Source of the DNA: Cyclospora cayetanensis
Lineage: Eukaryota > Apicomplexa > Conoidasida > Eucoccidiorida > Eimeriidae
Length of the DNA stretch: 64,000 nt
NCBI RefSeq assembly: GCF_002999335.1
Contig: NW_020312109.1
Location: forward strand, 26,655 to 90,654
Direction: 5' to 3'
Shown here: positions 4,845 to 49,515 of the stretch, in pieces
Position numbering within the stretch: the first letter of the stretch is position 1
How the letters are laid out: every line of letters starts with the position of its first letter
The notes under the pieces: generated by a model
The model's database searches: none
The model's input: only the letters and a program-made list of their open reading frames with translations
Told to the model about the DNA's origin: nothing
Made by a program: the position numbers and the translations under genes

Positions 4845-5010
4845 AGTACTGCTAGCTCAGTACTGCAAGATGCAGTGTTGTGTTCGTGTGCGTTATATGT
4901 TGTTATGTGCAACTAGCTGTGGATGCACGGAGGGCTTAGAGGGTAGAGCTACGCGCACCCCAGTTTTCCTGCCCTCTTATCGGAATCTTGCGGGGCACGG
5001 GTAAGGGAAG
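4845..5010 (+). repeat. Dispersed LTR-like repeat, copy 1
   Basis: Shares a block around TATGTGCAACTAGCTGTGGA and a downstream CGGAGGGCTTAGAGGG block with copies near 11.0, 23.6, 24.9, 28.2, 56.1 and 56.7 kb. The copies are strongly diverged. Confidence 0.6.
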
Positions 5011-5930: not shown

Positions 5931-6561
5931 AGTAGCGATAGAGTGTGTCGCTCGTTCTCCAGCCCTCCAAAGCCAGTCCTCCTTCAAAGCTCTTGAAATA
6001 TCTAACGAAATTCCCTGAATGCCGAAAGTGCGCCCCTCTGAAGCAGACTGCAACAGTGGTCCGAGTCCACAGGAGCGCGCACGGGTTTAAGCGGGACATA
6101 AGATATATACCACTACACAACGCGAAATGCCCCTGACAACTTGAAAATGTCACCAAAGAGTATTTGCAGGCCCCATGGAAGCATACACCACGGTTCCCGA
6201 GGCATTCGCTAAGGTCGGTGTTTCCCAGGGGCCTTAAGCATGCTGTGCTGCTGCCCTTGGAATTGATGCAGAGACTGCCCCTCTAGAGCCCTGGCAGATG
6301 CTTCCGTGGGAAAGGGTGGGGTATGCCAGACAGCTCCTCTGCCTCCGGCTTTCGTATGTGGCAATGAGCACATATATATACTCATTAGTGGATTAGTGCG
6401 TTGTAGAGGGGTATGGCGCACAAGACAGATGTCCATTGCCTGACTCCCCTTTCAAATTCATGCGCTCTAAATGCCTCACTCTCCACGTGAAGCTCCCAAC
6501 AACGTTTGATTTGACGTCGCCACACATGGGCTCAGACATTTCAAAGAAAGTGGCCCCTCTC

Positions 6562-9347
6562 CTAAGGGCTGGCCCCCACTGTGCGGGGACCCAGCTCGAT
6601 GTCAAGCCAGCCATCTGAAGTGTCTGCTATGGCGTCTACCGCTTGGGGAGCAGCTTGTCTGTTTTCCGCTGCTACCGAAACTCCTGCTGCCACGTTGGCT
6701 GACGGTGTTCCAGGGCCAGCTCCGAAGGCTTCGCCTGCTGAATGCGCAGCGATAGCTTGTGCCGTAGCTGCTATGCTTGGTGCGTACGGCATCTCTATTG
6801 CGTCTGCCGTTGGTCTTCGCAGTGATCCCACCGGGGAAAGGTTGCAGTCGTTAGTGAGTCTGGTGCTGACGAGTCCCTGACCGGCTAAGACACTGTGAAT
6901 GTCTTTTTTGCAGTTCGGGCAGGTTAGCCTCCTCTCAAACCACTGAAAGAGACAGGTACGGTGGAAGGCATGACGGCACTCGGGAAGACGGACTGCCGCG
7001 TCCCCCTCCTGCAACATCTCCTGGCAGATGCTGCAGCCCAGAAGGACCAAGGGACTACCCTGTTCTACGTTCTGGAAAAACGGCAAGACCCAACAGAGAC
7101 ATCGGCACACACACACACACATACAGGCACGATGAGAAGGCCAACGCGGGTAAAAGAATCCGGTGCAAGGGGAGGCGCGGCAAGGGCACAGCAAACGATA
7201 CAGTTCATTCCGATACACAAATCAATGAGCTCTTTCAGCTCTGCACATTCGTTCACTGCTGGCTGTTTTCTAAGGTCTGTTCTGGTAGCCATTTCATGTG
7301 TATCCGCACCTCTACATTCATGCATGCCTTCACGAGCTCCATTTTGGCATTGTGCTCCTCCTGGAGAACCCGTCGAGCTTCTCGTGCAAGCCTTTGTTGG
7401 GTGTCATCCCACGCTTCTTGTGAAGGTACCAAGCTCCCGGTGGGAAGCCCGAAAGGGATGTTTCCCCATTGGAGGAGCATGAGGATCAGAAAGAAGCCGC
7501 AAGCAGCGAAGAGAAAAGCAATGGCAGCCAGCAGCCTTCTCTCACGCTCTAGATAGGTGGCGATCTCTGCCGTGGTCGAGAGTGGCAGAAGCGATTTCAG
7601 CTCATCCAGATCAGTGGGGAGGGGTGACACAGGCAAGTGAACGTAAAAGAGATTTACAATTAGCAAAATATCGCCAATGGCCCACAGCAAACATAACATG
7701 AACAGGGAATTCAGCAGCTGTGTAGGCCGCAGCAAACAGGAGCGCCGCGAGAAGCCAGCACCAGGAGAAGGAACTGAGGCAGGAGGCGAAGATGCCAACG
7801 CAGAAGAAGCTGTCAGCGAGCTCAAAGCATGCCGCCCAGCAGCAGAAGAAGGAGACGAAGAAGAAGTCAAGTGACCATGAGCCTCGATACACGAGGTTCC
7901 GCCGAGGAAGAAGCCAAGGGGAAAGAGACAAACAGCGCCGCAAAACATGCCGCACACAAACCAACTCGAGCTCCCTGCGCGAACACCACAACCCCACTCT
8001 CTATACCACAGACCCTACACCACAAGCCACAGCCGCCAACTCCCCCAACTCCAGACCCTAAACACGCACACCGACCCCCACACTACCACTCGTTACCTAC
8101 TTCACCCCACATTCCAGGAAACTCTGATGCCTCGTCCACAATCTACGCAGACTATAGATGCAGCCCTAAGCCCCCGCTGACTGGAAAGCTACACGAAGAA
8201 CCCCCCCTTTAAACGACAATCGCAACATTGGCTTCATCATATTGGAAATCCTGGAGAGCCGCTGCCCTGAAGTTTATAAGGCCTTAGACGGCGAACGCAT
8301 GCTACGCCCACAACACAGTGTAAAGCCTGCTTTTTAGCTTCTTAAGTGCGCACGAAAAGCTGCATTGAAGCACGGATGTTCTGGTAATGCTTGCAAAAAT
8401 GATTTTGTGTGACGCACCCCTATCATGCCAAACCCTGAACAATTTGTGACGCCTTCAAGGGCAAAGGGCATAGAGCATATATATATATACAGATATTCCC
8501 TTACCTGCGTATGGAGCTCTAAAGGTGTATGTGTTGGAAAGAATAATCTCGAGATGCAGCTGCCCCCCCAGAATCCACAGAAGCGAATGGCGAGGCCACA
8601 ATATCACACCACAAGCCGCTGCGGGAAGCAGAGACAAATGGGCTCCCCAGTAGACCTAGCGCACAAAGCAGAGCAATTATTAGAGCGCGCACGAGTCTTT
8701 CGTCATGAGGCCAAAGCCCCCATCCGGTGACCTCCTCCAGAGGGGCCCTGATGGCTTACGCGTGACAGAAAGAAGACGAGGAAGATGAAGGGGGCAACCG
8801 TGGCTAAGGAAACGAGGGCTTTCAGCCTGGCTGCAGGCGAGCGCATGCATCTGCAGAAGGACCTCCTTCTAAGAGGCCAGTGGCAGCACCAACAGCCACT
8901 GGCCGTGGGGACAGTCAGCGCCTGAGAGAGGGCAGTGCCCGCAGGCAGCAGCAAGACAGGAAGCGAGACAACCTCAGGCCATAACAAGTGGCTCCCCAGA
9001 AGGGCTGGGAGGAGCAGCAACCCTGTCAACACCACACCGCTGTACCGCACCAACTCGATGCCCTCCGAGGCAACGAACGCGCGCTGAGAGGAGCGCAGAC
9101 CGGAGGAAGTGCGAACAGGGGGCCCCGAGGAAGAGGCCCTCTGCGACGTCCTTCCTCTGGAGGAGCGCCACTGCTGCGCACGCACCAGTGGGGGCCCCCG
9201 GGGGCCCCCACTGAGAGAGGAGTTGCTGCTGGTGGCGGGTTGCTGGAGTGCGCTGGGGGGGGGCCCCGCTGCCGTTTCCAAGGAAGCCAGTGAGGTGCCT
9301 CGGGGAAGCGCTGCCACGGAAGCGGCGAATGCAGCAGGAGCTGCCAT
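6562..9347 (-). CDS. Multi-spanning membrane RING-H2 E3 ubiquitin ligase
   Basis: Four exons: 9347-8760, 8655-8505, 7773-7310 and 7071-6562. Phases close exactly and give about 570 aa. The first exon holds a Ser/Pro/Arg-rich head, a helix in GVVLTGLLLLPALLG and a last helix ATVAPFIFLVFFLS. The second adds LSLLPAAACGVILWP. The third adds LFMLCLLWAIGDILLIVNLF and LLAAIAFLFAACGFFLILML, then a charged coiled-coil linker. The last exon carries a RING-H2 finger, CSICQEML..ECRHAFHRTCLFQWF..CPNC, with ligands C-x2-C, C-x-H-x2-H-x2-C and C-x2-C, followed by a disordered tail. It probably ubiquitinates substrates at an internal membrane, with the finger in the cytosol. The exon 3 donor may be GTAGAG at 7315 instead of GTGCGG, and the exon 3 acceptor may lie slightly upstream; both keep the frame. 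Substrates and exact subfamily are unknown. Confidence 0.83.
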
Positions 9348-10742
9348 CCTAGGACGCAGCGGCGAGACTCTCAGTCCACGAGCCTCAGCACGAGCTGCAC
9401 CAGGGGCAGCAGCTACCTTCTGTGGAAATGAAAGCTCATGCGGACAGGTCCCCTCACCCCATGCTCCGCGAAAAAGCCAGAAGGCAGCCGTTTCTGCTTG
9501 CCTCGGCGGGAGAGCACAGAGGGCCACAAGGCTTTGGCTGCTCCTCCCCTTTCAGAGAGGCTGCTCAGGGCAGGCCCGTGCAGGTCTTTACGCAGAATAT
9601 GTGAGCACGGGGAATCAAACGCTCTATAAATGCACTGTCTGTTTGTTTTAAGGGTGTGGAGGCCCTAAGGGGAAGAGCTGGGGGGCCCTCATTAACAGAA
9701 CCAGTGGCCCGCAACAGTGGACTCGATGCTGCGTTGCAACAGCAGGGGGTAGTTTGTCGTGTTGTGGTCCTTTGCGGATGCTGCTCTTGCTCATGTTGCT
9801 GTGGTTGGAGGAGCAAAACGAGTGACTGAAGAGGGTCAGAAATGGTTTGGAGGTGCCGCAGAGGAAGGCTACCGCAGACCATCGCCGTGGCTGCCCTGCT
9901 AGTACTGCTGTTGCTGCTGTGGCCGCTGTGCAGTTGGTCTACTTCGCGTAGACGTATGCTGCTGCTGCTGCTGTTGCTGCACGATATCGAGAGTAAGAAC
10001 AAGAATCACACTCGATTCTTCACTGCTTTTCACGCAATAGTCGTCGAAAGAAGGCCGAATTCCAGGGGAGCAGTAGTTCAGTGGGTTCTCCCCTCGTTCG
10101 GGTCGCTGGTGCCCTCGCTGCATACTTCTGCTCCTCCTACTCGGCCCTTGAAGTACACACATCCGCCTTTGAATGGAACTCTTAAAGAAGTAAATCTAAT
10201 TCCGAGAGATGCGTTGTGCCTCCCATAAACAAGCCCAAGGGGCACGAGTTTTCAGACAGATACACTCGTATGAATGACCAGTCCACATAATCCATCGCAC
10301 CCTGCTGTCTAAACTGGCATCTTGCCCTTTGCAGACTACAAACAAGACCAAAAGCAGCCACTGCATTACTGATCCTATGAGGGGCCCTTCCTTGTGGGCG
10401 GCTTCTTATCACAGACGTACTGCGCGCATTTCGGAGTCACCCGAAAATAACTGCCGAAACCTTCTGGTCTCCGGACTATACACCCAAGAAGCTGAAACAA
10501 AAAGTCTGAAATTGCTGCTGTGTGAATAGCCTCCGCATGAAGCGACTAAGATTAGTCCGTCCGAACATCGGCCCTGACTCGAAGGCGCTCCAACGGTTCT
10601 CCCCGCTTGCAACCAGGCTATTTGGGTGTATATTTCTTTTAATCCCCTCTGCTTAGAACTAAAGACCTTAGACCCAAAGTCTGGCTAAGCTTCTGGCAGT
10701 TTTGCAAAACCTTGGCAAACGAAGTGCAGGGCGTGTTCAGCT

Positions 10743-26200: not shown

Positions 26201-26935
26201 TTACAGAACCACCACAAGTGCAGGCCGAGAAGAATTTTCGGCGGCTGCTGCATGCGACCGTGCTGTTGCTACTGCCTCCAGAGCAGTAATGGCCTTTTCT
26301 GCTTTTGCTGTGGCGTCTTGTCTTGCGACTGCTGCCGCTGCTGCTGCTGCATCTGCCTCTTGTCGCCTTGCTGCCGCTCCGGCTGCTGCTGCCGCTGCTG
26401 CGTCTTCGGCCTCCTGTCGCCGCTGCTGCAACTGCTGCAGTTCCTTGTAAGCTTCCCTGGCAGCAGCAGCAGCGGCCGTTGCCGCCGATTTGCACGAGGC
26501 AGCCTCCCGCTCTGCTACTGCTTCGGCTTCTGCTGCAGCGCACGCTGCAGCAGAAGCCGCAGCACTTGCAGCATCCGCCTCGTGAGCTATTCTCTCAGTC
26601 TCTGCCGCAGCAGCCCTTGCCCGCTGAGCCTCACGAGCAGCCGCTGCTCTTCTCTCCTTTGCAGCCATCGCTGCTGTTGCTGCTCTTGCTGCTGCCTCCT
26701 GCGCCTTCTCTAGCTGGCGCTGCAGCTCTGCTGCATTTTCACGAGCTGCAACCGCTCTTGCTGCTGCTGTTACGCTGCGGCGGGTTGCGGCCTCAGCAGT
26801 AGCCGCAGCAGCAACAGCGTCGTCGCGCAACGCAGCAGCTGTCTGCCTGGCCTCTGCAGAGAGCTCGTTTACAGCGGCAACACCTGCTCCCGCTGCTGCT
26901 GTGTTTGTAAAGGGACAGGGTGTCTGCTGTTGCAT
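26201..26935 (-). CDS. Ala-rich coiled-coil protein, unknown function
   Basis: 244 aa from the ATG at 26935. The frame is open slightly further upstream without an ATG. Nearly the whole protein is Ala with regularly spaced Glu, Arg, Lys and Gln (for example REAQRARAAAAETERIAHEA), which predicts one long helix or coiled coil. GCA/GCT and CAG repeats dominate the DNA. There is no signal peptide or domain. The heptad-like charge spacing argues for real coding over a plain trinucleotide expansion, but it sits alone in the element-relic block and could be an exon of a larger or decayed gene. Confidence 0.42.
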   Translation of the reverse strand: MQQQTPCPFTNTAAAGAGVAAVNELSAEARQTAAALRDDAVAAAATAEAATRRSVTAAARAVAARENAAELQRQLEKAQEAAARAATAAMAAKERRAAAAREAQRARAAAAETERIAHEADAASAAASAAACAAAEAEAVAEREAASCKSAATAAAAAAREAYKELQQLQQRRQEAEDAAAAAAAGAAARRQEADAAAAAAAVARQDATAKAEKAITALEAVATARSHAAAAENSSRPALVVVL

Positions 26936-32763: not shown

Positions 32764-33790
32764 CTTGCCGGAGGCATGCAACGAATGATGGGGAGGCTGA
32801 TGCTGCTGCTGGTAGTTGCCTAGAAGGGCACTCATAGGCACAAGAGGAGGCAGTGGCGCTGAGGATGTAGCCTCACGAGAGCCGCTGCGCGCATCCTGTC
32901 TCGCTGGTTGCCTCGTTCCCCCGTCGCTACAGTGCCGCTTGCTGGAGTTGGCGAGATGCCTGTGGCAGATTTTGATTTGGCGCAAAGCCAATGGAAGCAG
33001 TTGCTGGCAACAGGAGCATCAGATACGAGACAAAGGGGTGCCTGCCCAGGGAACTTTGCGTTCGCTGCTCCTCTGCTGCTCTGCGTGGCAGCCAAAGCCT
33101 AGGCGCTCACATGCGATCTCGGGCCCTTTTGCGACTCAAGAAAGGGTAAGAACAGAGTCAAGAAGTAGCAAATCGCAAAGCAAAAGACATTCAGCCCCCG
33201 ATGCAGAACTGCTGCTGAACAGTGCTGCAGCTCTGAGGAGCTGCGCTCCCCTCTGCCGGCGGCAAAACTGGTGCTGAATCGAAACCTCAAACCCTATGCC
33301 AGTAGTTTCGCCCCCCTCCCAAAGTGCAAAATCCACATGTTCAGAAGCTCTAATTCGCATGCACAATTATAAAAGTGCATTTCTTCGAGAAAATTTACTG
33401 GTTTTGCTCGGTAGGAGGCTAGCAATTAGGATTACTCAGTGCTATTTAGTCGCACGTCGTTCTCACCAGTTTACTACGTACAGGGCTTGCGCAGCGCAGG
33501 CAGATCCGAGAAGCGCAGCAGGATGCCACTGGTTAAATAAATCCGCCCCTATCATAGAGCCAGTGAACTCACAGCGCTAAATGTCATGCTGTAACGCTAA
33601 AATTTCCTTTGTTGAGCTCGTGGGACGCTTGTTCCTCGAGGTGTTACAAACGCCTAGTTTCACCTCCCCAACTCCTGCTCCCCCTCCTTCCTGCGTGTGT
33701 GACACAACCAGCCAGCCTGCCCTGTGATTTACGCCTTGTTGCGCACTGGGCCGCCGCTGACTCCCGCCTCCCGCCTCCGGCTCGTCGTGT
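32764..33790. other. Divergent promoter region
   Basis: Lies between the secreted coiled-coil gene (-) and the pseudokinase (+), so it should carry both promoters and 5' UTRs. It has no conserved coding sequence. The perfect palindrome at 33791-33838 closes it on the pseudokinase side. Confidence 0.5.
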
Positions 33791-33838
33791 CTGACTCGAG
33801 GATTCAAGGTGTACGTACACCTTGAATCCTCGAGTCAG
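33791..33838. repeat. Perfect 48-bp palindrome
   Basis: Two 24-base arms with no spacer, centred at GTAC/GTAC (33814/33815). The left arm is CTGACTCGAG GATTCAAGGT GTAC and the right arm is its exact reverse complement. It ends 42 bases before the pseudokinase ATG. A 14-bp relative, GGTGTACATACACC, lies in the coding region at 34518-34531. Confidence 0.98.
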
Positions 33839-33880
33839 CGGGCTCTCCAAAAAGCTGCGATCGAGGATACTCAGGCTTGC

Positions 33881-36346
33881 ATGATGCCGCGTCCGATTCT
33901 TCAGGGGCCGACTGCGACGGCTGAGGCCGTGTGCGTGCTGCCATCCTCCACGATCAAAGGGGCAGAAGAGGCAGTAGCAGCCGGAGTAGAGGACGCAACA
34001 CAGTCCGAGTGGCGGTGGTTAGCAGAGGCAACAGAGGATTTCTCGGAGGAGGCGATCCTCGAGGAGCTCCCCGAGAAGGAACAAGAGGCCCTCCTTCAAC
34101 AGTGGCTTGCGGAAACATCCCAAACCGCTCGCCCAGTAGAATCTCCCCCAGAAGTCTTTCAAGTCACTCCCCCTGCCTCGGCTGGAGTATCGCTTCTCAG
34201 CGATGATGACGCATGGACTCTTCCGTCTTCATTCCCACGCGCCTCCCTCCCCAGCGGCCTCCTGGCCGTTCCGTCCGACCCTTTCCTCTCACAAGACTCC
34301 CTGCGCACCCCGAGGAAGAGCCGCCACAGCAGAGTGCAGCAGCAAGAGCTGCAGCAGCAGCAAGAGCTGCAGCAGCAAGAGCTGCTTGACCGGGGGCCCC
34401 CCCCGCCTCCTACGGCCCTTCCGTGGGGGGGAGGCGGCGCGCAGTGGATTTTGAACGCAGACGAGGTGGTGGAGCAGGAGAAGAACGGGGTTCTCGTCCT
34501 TCAGTTCCCGCAGTCGGGGTGTACATACACCTCAAGCGCAGGCGCTGCTGGAGGCGCGGCGAGCGTCCATCACCAGGCGCCGGGGCAAGAGGCCCTCTGG
34601 GAAGTTACCCCCGCAGCCACTACCAAGAGCGGCAGCCTAGTCGTGAAGAAAGTCGCCATAGATGGGGAGCGCAGTATGCCTGCGTGGCTGCTGCGCTGCA
34701 TATGCCTCGCTCAAAACGCAGCGGCTTGTGTGGGCTCCCCCCACGGAGCCCAGGGGGCCCACGAGGAACCGCAAGACGGCTGCGCAGCGCGGTTGTTGCT
34801 GCCAGTGTACGATGTGCATGTGGCCTCTACTGCTGCGTATTTCGTTGTTGAAGGGAGCGCACGCTGCTGCTCCCTTGCCGGAGCAGTGCTGCGTCGGAGC
34901 TCTCAGGAAGCTCTCCGCTGCAGCTGCGGGAGCGGCAGCGACTCCTTCCTGAGAACCTCGACGCACGTGCAGTCCCCCAAAGCCGACGCTGGCGGCGGCT
35001 CCACCGACACCAGCAGCAGCGCAGGGCCGAAATTTCTTGGCTGGGGGTGTGTGGGGTGCCCGCGCCGCTTCCTGTGGCTGTTGCTGTGCGGCTTGGCGTG
35101 GCTCCGAGCTCTCCGTCTGCTGCCTTCGACGGTTTCTCCGTCATCGGTGTACTTGAGAGGCCCCTGCCCGTTGAGGCTGTACCTCGCTGTGCCGCCCCTC
35201 ACGCCGGACGTCGCGTGGGAGCGGGGGGAGGCGCAGCAGCAGCCGCCTGGGGACGTCTCCTGGCTGGCGCATCAGCTCCCTCCGAGCTGCTGGGTTCCCC
35301 CCGAAAGGCGCGCAGCAGAGGCTGCAAGGGAAGCGCAGCCGAGTGCGACGTGCTCGGAAAGCCGCCACGAGACGCACTGGGGCCCGTCGTGCAGCCCAGA
35401 GGACGGCGAGGCGGCAGTCGTCTGGGGCGTTGGCGTGTGCCTTTTGGCTCATTTGCTGCTGCAGCAGCATGGGCGGCAGACAGAAGAGGCGCAGCCAGTG
35501 CGCGTGCAGCGGCCGAAGCAACGGGCGCAGCCGGAGGCGCGGCTGGAGGCGTTGAAGCGCGAGGATTCTGGGAGTAGGAGGAGCCTCGGGGGCAGGCTCT
35601 CCGTAGACGCCGCCGCAGCGGACGAGGTGCTCTGGCCCTCCGGGGAGTCTCTCGCCCTACGCCGCAGGCGCAGTTGCGGCTTGCCGGAAGACTTGCTGCT
35701 GTTGCAGCAAGAGCGAGAAGGCGCCGCTGCCGCTGTGGCAGCGGCAAGCCAGGAGCTTGTGGATACCTGCGAAGGGACCTCCGCAGGCGATGCAGGGCAG
35801 CTGCCTGCATCGCTGCTAGCAGCAGCTTCGGAGGGCGCTGCCCCCTTCATGGTCTACGAAGCCAACGGCGAACTCAGCAGCAGCAGCCTCTTGAAGGCGC
35901 TGCCACAGCTCGCAACCGACCCTCTAGGCTTGCGTCTGCTGCAGCTGTTTCTGCACGCAGCCCCCAGAGCCCGCATCTCCCTTGACGACGCGCTCTCGCA
36001 TCCCTGGTTCCAGGAAATCAGAGCAGATATTGCCGCCGCAGGAAGCAAAGCCTGCTCCTGTGGTCGCGGTAGGGGGAGCTCTAGTGACAGCACCAGCAGG
36101 GAGGGCGAGTGGAGCGACATCGAGCCGAAGCGCTCTTGCGCCGCAGCGGAGTGGGTAAGTGCAGTCGCACGCGCCTCCCAGCGTTCATCGGCGGAGGCAG
36201 CGCAGGGCGAGGAGTGGCTGCTCTCCTTTCTCGACAGACTGGGCTTATCGCCCTCTCGAACAGGCTCTGCAACGAAACCAAGGCCCTTTGAGACCTGCTC
36301 CCCCACTGCGTGCTGCTCAAGGGGGTGTCCGCTGCAGGTGCTGTAA
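33881..36346 (+). CDS. Divergent protein pseudokinase
   Basis: 821 aa in one exon from ATG 33881 to TAA 36346. The frame is open back to about 33800 without an ATG. Kinase landmarks appear in order: a beta-3-like strand SLVVKKVAI near residue 250; a hinge-like VYDVHVASTAAYFVVEGSA; STVSPSSVYL near 415 in place of the catalytic loop; LRLYLAV where DFG is expected; WVPPERR near 472, like the APE region; a helix VVWGVGVCLLAHLLL near 512, like the F helix; and ARISLDDALSHPWFQEI near 700, the typical end of the C-lobe. His-Arg-Asp, Asp-Phe-Gly and a Gly-rich loop are missing, so phosphotransfer is unlikely. Large Gly/Pro/Gln-rich inserts separate the parts. No signal peptide, so a nuclear or cytosolic scaffold or allosteric role is more likely than a secreted ROP-type one. 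Palindromes flank both ends. Confidence 0.66.
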   Translation: MMPRPILQGPTATAEAVCVLPSSTIKGAEEAVAAGVEDATQSEWRWLAEATEDFSEEAILEELPEKEQEALLQQWLAETSQTARPVESPPEVFQVTPPASAGVSLLSDDDAWTLPSSFPRASLPSGLLAVPSDPFLSQDSLRTPRKSRHSRVQQQELQQQQELQQQELLDRGPPPPPTALPWGGGGAQWILNADEVVEQEKNGVLVLQFPQSGCTYTSSAGAAGGAASVHHQAPGQEALWEVTPAATTKSGSLVVKKVAIDGERSMPAWLLRCICLAQNAAACVGSPHGAQGAHEEPQDGCAARLLLPVYDVHVASTAAYFVVEGSARCCSLAGAVLRRSSQEALRCSCGSGSDSFLRTSTHVQSPKADAGGGSTDTSSSAGPKFLGWGCVGCPRRFLWLLLCGLAWLRALRLLPSTVSPSSVYLRGPCPLRLYLAVPPLTPDVAWERGEAQQQPPGDVSWLAHQLPPSCWVPPERRAAEAAREAQPSATCSESRHETHWGPSCSPEDGEAAVVWGVGVCLLAHLLLQQHGRQTEEAQPVRVQRPKQRAQPEARLEALKREDSGSRRSLGGRLSVDAAAADEVLWPSGESLALRRRRSCGLPEDLLLLQQEREGAAAAVAAASQELVDTCEGTSAGDAGQLPASLLAAASEGAAPFMVYEANGELSSSSLLKALPQLATDPLGLRLLQLFLHAAPRARISLDDALSHPWFQEIRADIAAAGSKACSCGRGRGSSSDSTSREGEWSDIEPKRSCAAAEWVSAVARASQRSSAEAAQGEEWLLSFLDRLGLSPSRTGSATKPRPFETCSPTACCSRGCPLQVL

Positions 36347-47683: not shown

Positions 47684-49515
47684 TCAGCCTCCATAGAACC
47701 TCCAGAAGTCATACGCGGTCCGCTCACGATACACATCCACATACACACATGAATATATACATATATATATGCATATATATATGTATATATGTATATACAT
47801 ATATGCATATATATATGTATATATATGTATATATATATATATGCATATATATATGTATATATGTATATATACACATACCATTTGTACAGAAAATAACGTT
47901 TGTGGGCTCCTTCCCCCCGCAGCTGGGACAAAAAAAATAGCGCTCTTAAGAGCCTCCCGATGAATTGCAGAGCTTGCGTGCATATTGTCGGTAATTAACA
48001 GTAGGATGCCTTTCTGCTCAGACCACCTCGAAGAAGAGCTAGGCTCTCCGGATGAATTGGTGGTGTACTTGGTTCTAGGTGAGGCGCTAGAGCTCCTAGT
48101 GGGGCCGCTGATGCGCACACGAGGCTGCGCCAACGATGCTCGCCAAGAGCGCTTCTCCTCAGCTTGCAGCCGCGACGAGGGGAGACGTGTGAGGGCGACA
48201 AATCGCAAAGGCTGTGGGCACGACAAAAGCCTCCATGCGCATTCGTCCTCCAAAAAATTTCGCAAACAGCTGCAGCGGCACACTGCAGGAACCAGCAGCT
48301 CCCACAACACAAGCAACCCCCACCCTAACCAACCAGACGCACCATCACCTACAGGAAGCGCATATATATATATACATATGTATATGTATGTATGTATTTA
48401 TATAAACATGCTAGCTTTTGCGTCTCAGGCTTCTCTGCGGCGTGTTTTTCTGAGGCATATTCGGCCGCTACTAGGAGCTTGAGAGCCATAACCCTCAGCG
48501 AAATGCGTAGGATACTACACTTGCCCGGCTCCCTGCTCACTCTGATTGTATCCTTGTGTGCTTCCTGCGCGCTTCTTCTCTTTTGCACGCCTTTTGTTTC
48601 TTTCAGCGTCTGCCTGATGCCTCTCCGTAGTCTGCACCAGTAGAGTTCCCCAATCGTAGCTCTACTTTTCACCTACTTGTAGCGGAAGACTCCCCAGGCG
48701 CTTCTTTCCCTCCCTTCCTCCCTTACTTCCCCTAGGGGGCCCCCGTTCGCCTGTAGCTGTTGGTTGCGTAGCCTGCAGTAGGCAGCAGCCGTTGCATGCA
48801 CGAGGCTCTAGAAATTCCTCGGGGGGGAGACACCCCAGGCGCAGCCGTCCAACGACGCGCATGCACAAAAGAATAACTGCCCAAAAACCGCGCAAACAGA
48901 CTGGCATACTACCAGACAGCCCGCCACGCCAGACACAGCTGCTCTCGGGGTGCGATCCGTGTTCGCAGTCATTTCCGTGCAGCCGCACATAGAAGCTGTC
49001 GTCCGGAAGGAGCTCATAAAGTTTCACAGACTCTCAAAGCTCGAGTGAAAAACCCTCGCTCGGGAGGGAAAGTCAGCCTGTGCTCCGCAACGCACAGCTA
49101 TTCGGAGAGACCCTTTGCAGAGGAACTAGCTACTAGACGATGCCGTTCGGCCTTCGCTCCTAACCCCAGTTTGGCGGACGATTGCACGTCAGTGTCGCTG
49201 CGATCCTCCATCAGGCTTTTGGTCTGACTTCCCCCAACTCAGACCTACTTCCTTAGTCTTTATCAGGTCCTTACGGACGTGCCACAACTCAAACCTCTCT
49301 CATAAAGCTCGTCGGCGGCTGTAGATACGCGGAACGAGCAGTGCAGGCGAACCCCCCCTACGCTCACCTTCCTTGCGCAGTGTGGGGTTCCCCCCTTTCC
49401 CTTCCCACCCATTCACACAGCTGACATTCACACACTTGCGCACTTCTGTAAGACTCTCCACCTCCTCAGGCCGTGCTGCCCGCGCTGCGACGCTTCCTCC
49501 GTTTTTCAAATGCAT
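47684..49515 (-). CDS. Unknown protein, four exons
   Basis: Exons 49515-49444, 49030-48913, 48282-47879 and 47722-47684. Phases 0, 1, 0 all agree and give 210 aa. It starts [20 protein letters not shown], continues [19 protein letters not shown] and [20 protein letters not shown], then an Arg/Ser-rich region ([19 protein letters not shown]), then [31 protein letters not shown], and ends [10 protein letters not shown]. There is no signal peptide or known motif. Donors include GTAGTA and GTATGT. A TATATG microsatellite fills the last intron. The frame is open upstream of the chosen ATG, so an earlier exon may exist. It ends convergently with the plus-strand gene at 47328. Confidence 0.42.
47745..47876. 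repeat. (ATATATGC/ATATGT)n microsatellite
   Basis: Alternating ATATAT, GCATAT and GTATAT units filling the last intron of the minus-strand gene. Confidence 0.9.

Follow-up and report, generated by a model that had tools for sequence, protein, structure and literature searches.

A recurrent 14-bp palindromic motif within a 48-bp perfect palindrome upstream of cyc_04570 in Cyclospora cayetanensis

The stretch of Cyclospora cayetanensis DNA analyzed here (64,000 nucleotides, referred to as the window, with positions counted from its first base) harbors a perfect palindrome at 33791-33838: two 24-bp arms meet without a mismatch or a loop, so that the sequence equals its own reverse complement and has no strand (CTGACTCGAGGATTCAAGGTGTAC/GTACACCTTGAATCCTCGAGTCAG). 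Base pairing ends beyond these limits on either side. No other perfect palindrome in the window is as long; the next in length are AT-rich ones of 38 and 34 bp, and then a G/C run of 28 bp. A preliminary description of the locus had drawn attention to the spacerless arms as being far beyond chance, and both points hold: under a simple model with a probability of 1/4 per pair, about 1.5e-7 palindromes of 24 pairs are expected in 43.2 Mb, and the expected number of cases in which one of 284 cores gains 17 further pairs is about 1.7e-8. The palindrome ends 42 bp before an ATG at 33881, also as described, and the intervening gap (33839-33880, forward strand) contains TCGAGGAT at 33861-33868, which, read by eye, recurs in the left arm at 33796-33803. 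The palindrome consists of two layers. At its center lies a 14-bp core, GGTGTACGTACACC (33808-33821, strandless), that recurs through the genome; this is flanked by a left outer arm of 17 bp (33791-33807, forward strand) and a right outer arm of 17 bp (33822-33838, reverse strand), the exact reverse complement of the left one, and the arms are matched at this locus only. The notable item is the recurrent 14-bp element within the palindrome, rather than the 48-bp palindrome itself. A second copy of the motif, GGTGTACATACACC, had been recognized as a 14-bp relative at 34518-34531 (C74:61172, strandless); it is one mismatch away from the core and lies inside the downstream gene, 710 bp from the first copy.

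The downstream gene, cyc_04570 (33881-36346, forward strand), encodes, if intronless, an 821-aa protein that is distantly kinase-like. The protein read from 33881 is a 100% match, across 73% of the query, to cyc_04570 of Cyclospora cayetanensis, and on this one protein the DNA belongs to Cyclospora and not to Eimeria. Homologues are present in Eimeria stiedai and E. flavescens. The earlier label of pseudokinase is plausible but thinly supported. The database name of the match is 'Protein kinase domain-containin[g]' and a three-sequence profile gives a weak match to the C-lobe of CDK2 (E ~8e-4), but a Pfam search of the protein returned no kinase, and the top profile match is a Mediator subunit (7e-5) that ranks above CDK2 and is probably spurious. 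The public cyc_04570 protein (733 aa) lacks 88 residues at 34275-34538 (approximate limits), as if an intron were present. Much of this peptide is present in both Eimeria homologues, and the annotated intron is therefore probably wrong.

The distribution of the core was determined in 43.2 Mb of genome sequence (392 contigs), using as control the reversed core pattern, which has equal composition and is likewise palindromic. There are 49 exact copies of GGTGTACGTACACC, against 0.16 expected (4^-14 per base), and 284 copies with at most one mismatch, against 10 for the control. The mismatches are sharply position-specific: when the 235 one-mismatch variants are counted by symmetric position, 27 fall at positions 1/14, 60 at 2/13 (53 of them G to C), 9 at 3/12, 4 at 4/11, 15 at 5/10, 28 at 6/9 and 92 at the central pair 7/8 (84 of them C to T). 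This spectrum yields the logo GSTGTAYRTACASC, of which the core at 33808-33821 is a consensus copy. The logo occurs at 312 sites (control 0, about 2.6 expected), or approximately one per 139 kb, and the shorter form STGTAYRTACAS is found 834 times vs. 91 in the control. With spacers of 0-20 bases allowed between the half-sites, 49 of 51 matches have a spacing of zero. Around 40 other exact sites, offset 10 is T in 42 of 80 flanks and A in 2 of 80; the T favored there is not found in the 48-bp copy. A mobile element was rejected as the source of the copies, the same 40 sites having no common flank beyond the preference at offsets 9-10. Motif sites lie closer together than random (adjacent gaps of at most 2 kb, 11 vs. 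3.7 expected; at most 10 kb, 43 vs. 18.1 expected), a tendency that could be due in part to an uneven density of genes or to gene duplication. In literature text searches the string GGTGTACGTACACC was not found, GTGTACGTACAC appeared in an unrelated context only, and the hits for TGTACGTACA included a study of AraR and, by title, none on an apicomplexan. Judged by titles and the starts of abstracts, no report of the Cyclospora motif was found, and none of a palindromic AP2 promoter motif in Eimeria. By string search, the main texts of two papers on Toxoplasma/Cryptosporidium elements (PMC2688925, PMC3734150) contain none of TGTAC, GTACA and GTGTA, while the text of PMC5604118 names AP2-G motifs and contains no TGTA or TACA string.

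A zero-spaced palindrome with such a pattern of tolerance is the mark that would be expected of a homodimer. The most likely ligand of the 14-bp core is a dimeric DNA-binding protein, which would read both half-sites at the fixed zero spacing. A dimeric protein site had been suggested for the palindrome as a whole. The suggestion agrees well with the core, given its sharp logo, zero spacing and hundreds of copies, but is unsupported for the full 48 bp because the outer arms are matched at no other locus. An analogue of this geometry is found in Bacillus, where the AraR homodimer binds a zero-spaced palindrome, At(T/A)tGTaCGTAcaa(A/T)T, with the same center as the Cyclospora core (PMC4218819). 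AraR is however a bacterial repressor from an unrelated organism, and no membership is claimed.

The best candidate binder found is a putative Cyclospora counterpart of PFG. In Plasmodium female gametocytes, PFG is tied by ChIP-seq to a ten-base element, TGTRNNYACA, which it binds with AP2-FG; mutation of this element reduces PFG binding to background, and PFG activates female-gametocyte genes (PMC10945693). PFG homologues are reported in T. gondii and E. tenella (ETH2_1252400, PMC10945693). The Cyclospora core TGTACGTACA and the logo TGTAYRTACA fit the Plasmodium element, and both elements are symmetric with fixed spacing. However, the Cyclospora motif is longer (GS...SC, with a weaker T at offset 10), and while the element acts upstream of genes in Plasmodium (PMC10945693), several sites of the Cyclospora motif are embedded in coding sequence. 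The copy at 33808 precedes an ATG, but three others are located within Pfam domains that pass the cut-off, and two more within proteins that have homologues. A further difference concerns position 6 of the motif (position 4 of the ten-mer), where A is strongly preferred and the 28 variants comprise 8 G, 10 C and 10 T; G being no commoner than C or T, the Cyclospora motif has no general preference for purines there. In 264 kb of sequence (the window and 20 stretches picked because they contain the core), with exact cores left out, TGTRNNYACA in its general form shows hardly any enrichment (28 occurrences vs. 19 for the reversed control); TGTA..TACA occurs 20 times vs. 6, and TGTG..CACA 5 times vs. 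5. The fit is therefore to TGTAYRTACA only. An AP2 protein is a fair alternative as candidate binder, since Cyclospora has at least 35 ApiAP2 proteins (PMC4851813). Compared with the AP2-G motif, (Gx)GTACNC (PMC6631176), the Cyclospora half-site contains GTACAC, but the bracketed Gx before GTAC is absent from the core, and the account of AP2-G sites given in the relevant part of that source does not describe them as a zero-spaced 14-bp palindrome (PMC6631176).

Rather than the site of a regulator, the core might be a general chromosome element involved in recombination, replication or chromatin, similar in spirit to the highly iterated palindrome HIP1. This explanation appears doubtful, although motif sites do occur in conserved coding exons of unrelated genes and tend to lie in coding-like sequence. 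On a coding score derived from 17 long open frames, for which homology was not checked, 16 of 21 motif sites score above zero, as against 33% of 4200 random windows; the window site ahead of the ATG also receives a positive score. Scores above 5 are reached by 2 of the 21 sites vs. 8% of the background, which is no difference, so that many motif sites look coding, but not strongly so. By Pfam, motif sites lie inside three domains that pass the cut-off (a kinase, an NAD-binding domain and a prolyl-oligopeptidase propeller) and inside an ABC transporter that scores just below it; for 16 of the 20 site frames submitted to Pfam no match above cut-off was obtained. HIP1 is likewise a palindrome repeated through a genome, but its sequence, GCGATCGC, occurs at high frequency in cyanobacteria (PMC4390886), whereas the motif described here is 14 bp long and belongs to a eukaryote. 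A comparably high density is not seen in Cyclospora, with 312 sites in 43.2 Mb. The match of the core to a known apicomplexan transcription element and the clustering of motif sites also count against a general chromosome element.

The outer arms call for a separate account from that of the putatively dimer-bound core, and probably one of them was copied with the other as template. In a comparison with 40 other exact sites (8 of the 49 exact sites were left out), the 48-bp copy pairs at all 17 positions between offsets 8 and 24, while the best of the other cores pairs at 9 of 17. Per column, pairing among these 40 cores is near chance, with the largest excess at offset 8 (17 vs. 10.8). Extended arms were rejected as part of the motif, since these 40 cores do not have them. 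The palindrome and its arms matched only the palindrome itself and its own inverse in a genome search, although such a search may miss common words and its result is not proof of rarity. Perfect short inverted repeats do arise in the Cyclospora genome, possibly seeded by self-complementary cores. In the same 264 kb, with loops of up to 40 nt and a looser filter, there are 8 perfect inverted repeats with arms of at least 13 bp, including the 48-bp palindrome and the G/C-run palindrome at 9186-9213, vs. 0 mirror repeats; the corresponding numbers are 9 vs. 1 for arms of at least 12 bp and 15 vs. 3 for arms of at least 11 bp. A stricter complexity filter, with loops of up to 20 nt, leaves 3 inverted vs. 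0 mirror repeats (arms of at least 13 bp) and 9 vs. 4 (at least 11 bp). Under this stricter filter, 17 direct repeats and 1 complement-direct repeat have arms of at least 13 bp, and local direct duplication is therefore the commoner process in these 264 kb. A looser hairpin count, with low-complexity arms and one hairpin counted nested, was set aside.

Short-range template switching often generates perfect inverted repeats (PMC7954356; PMC7202029). The Cyclospora palindrome shares with quasipalindromes and template-switch repeats its perfect arms, abrupt ends and self-complementary seed (PMC7954356), but the ancestral state is not seen for the 48 bp. Since inverted repeats outnumber mirror repeats in the 264 kb, template switching at the self-complementary core is the best explanation of the arms and the best-supported origin that can be proposed from the sequence. 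In such an event, the nascent strand would fold at the core during replication, forming a GGTGT/ACACC stem with an ACGT loop, would be extended by 17 nt along its own arm and would then return to the template, giving rise to a perfect inverted repeat around the core. The palindrome would accordingly be a copy of the genome-wide motif GSTGTAYRTACASC whose flanks have been made an inverted repeat by template switching and whose core is bound by a dimer, for which a PFG-like protein is the candidate. This composite reading is the preferred one, held with a confidence that is evenly balanced.

Alternatively, the whole 48 bp may have been selected for its effect on the downstream gene, either as a stronger site that accommodates several dimers or as a hairpin in the 5' leader that limits ribosome scanning. 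The position of the palindrome 42 bp ahead of the ATG, the second motif copy 710 bp away in the same gene and the existence of another motif-related extended inverted repeat (L023:9605-9640) are in line with this. So is the strong predicted RNA fold of 33761-33900: its energy is -59.9 kcal/mol, whereas 200 shuffles average -41.7 (z -4.85) and none of them folds as well. A strong hairpin so near the ATG would hinder scanning if transcribed; this argues weakly that transcription may start downstream of the palindrome, or else that the gene may be restrained, and an mRNA hairpin, as had been proposed, is possible. Selection of the entire palindrome is nevertheless unlikely, because such arms are found at none of 40 other exact sites (8 of 49 left out) and because perfect inverted repeats without the motif also occur in the Cyclospora genome. 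Any effect of the palindrome on the downstream gene would be presumptive.

Amplification of the REPLI-g type can make inverted chimeras, and an assembly, amplification or linker artefact has to be considered as the source of the palindrome. An earlier Cyclospora assembly was made from REPLI-g amplified DNA (PMC4851813), although the preparation of the present assembly may differ. On the other side, the palindrome is centered on a natural genome motif, is found at one locus in the genome and stops pairing after 24 bp. Fold-back artefacts usually duplicate long stretches. A 20-mer spanning arm and half core is absent from a collection of prokaryotic contigs (genome_contigs) and a 20-mer spanning arm and core from viral_contigs, searches that would reveal widespread linkers only, and blastn of 68 bp against plasmids gave no match. 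A linker, vector or contaminant was rejected on these results, which are a weak test for rare linkers. The cloning or assembly artefact raised in the preliminary description thus gained no positive support, the structure being matched at a single locus and having no match in the prokaryotic, viral and plasmid collections, and an artefactual origin is very unlikely.

Enrichment of the motif as a recurrent peptide, VYVH, is the least probable explanation of all and hardly credible. In its favor, the VYVH frame has no stop in 52 of 80 cases, compared with 40 of 80 for either of the other frames and a background of 42%, and a protein search at two further sites showed that VYVH persists in 1 of 2 homologues at one site (the second has VYVN) and in 3 of 4 at the other (the fourth has VHIH). 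However, the window site at 34518-34531 is read in another frame, as CTYT, the 33808 site lies upstream of the ATG, and synonymous changes of the first valine codon belong to the 4/11 class, which has fewer sites than any other. Among the 20 frames submitted to Pfam, 17 were VYVH frames, by the authors' choice. Around the site at 34518-34531, E. stiedai retains the peptide FPQSGCTYT, and E. flavescens has FPQSGYTYT. The frequency of non-GTG valine codons (2777 codons) predicts about 1.4 position-4 variants per copy coding in the VYVH frame, and up to about 68 if all 49 copies coded in that frame. The entire 4/11 class comprises only 4 sites, and these codon variants therefore indicate that the motif is constrained at the level of DNA rather than peptide; the codon test contradicts enrichment driven by the peptide.

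To our knowledge, Cyclospora is not amenable to continuous culture, and little is therefore known of its switch to sexual stages. If the preferred reading is true, the protein that binds the core motif possibly controls the sexual stages of the parasite. A broader proposal is more tentative: Cyclospora, and perhaps coccidia, may possess a conserved palindromic element of 14-20 bp, constrained as DNA, placed both in exons and ahead of genes, and serving a PFG-like sexual-stage network, with a core that also seeds template-switch palindromes. Constraint on DNA inside coding exons would be unusual for an apicomplexan transcription element. The combination of a sharp, countable motif, GSTGTAYRTACASC, with a named candidate binder allows a direct test of binding by the Eimeria or a putative Cyclospora PFG homologue. 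As for the palindrome, it has the look of a mutational accident at a motif site, and its main use is to have exposed the motif.

Other inverted structures were seen in the same sequences. In the window, a perfect hairpin with 17-bp arms and a 2-nt loop lies at 26524-26559, and an AT-rich array of overlapping imperfect palindromes occupies 47729-47878. The 10-kb locus L023, which holds two motif copies (at 5000 and 5864), also carries the inverted repeat at 9605-9640, whose 15-bp arms are built on TGTACGTACATACA, a relative of the motif. Two perfect hairpins occur near each other in L036, one with 31-bp arms and a 4-nt loop (238-303) and the other with 16-bp arms and a 15-nt loop (580-626). In L018, a perfect 44-bp palindrome with an (AGCT)n core and 10-bp non-repetitive arms is found at 1715-1758, and several near-tandem units resembling AAATGAAGGCGGTT extend over 6245-6734.
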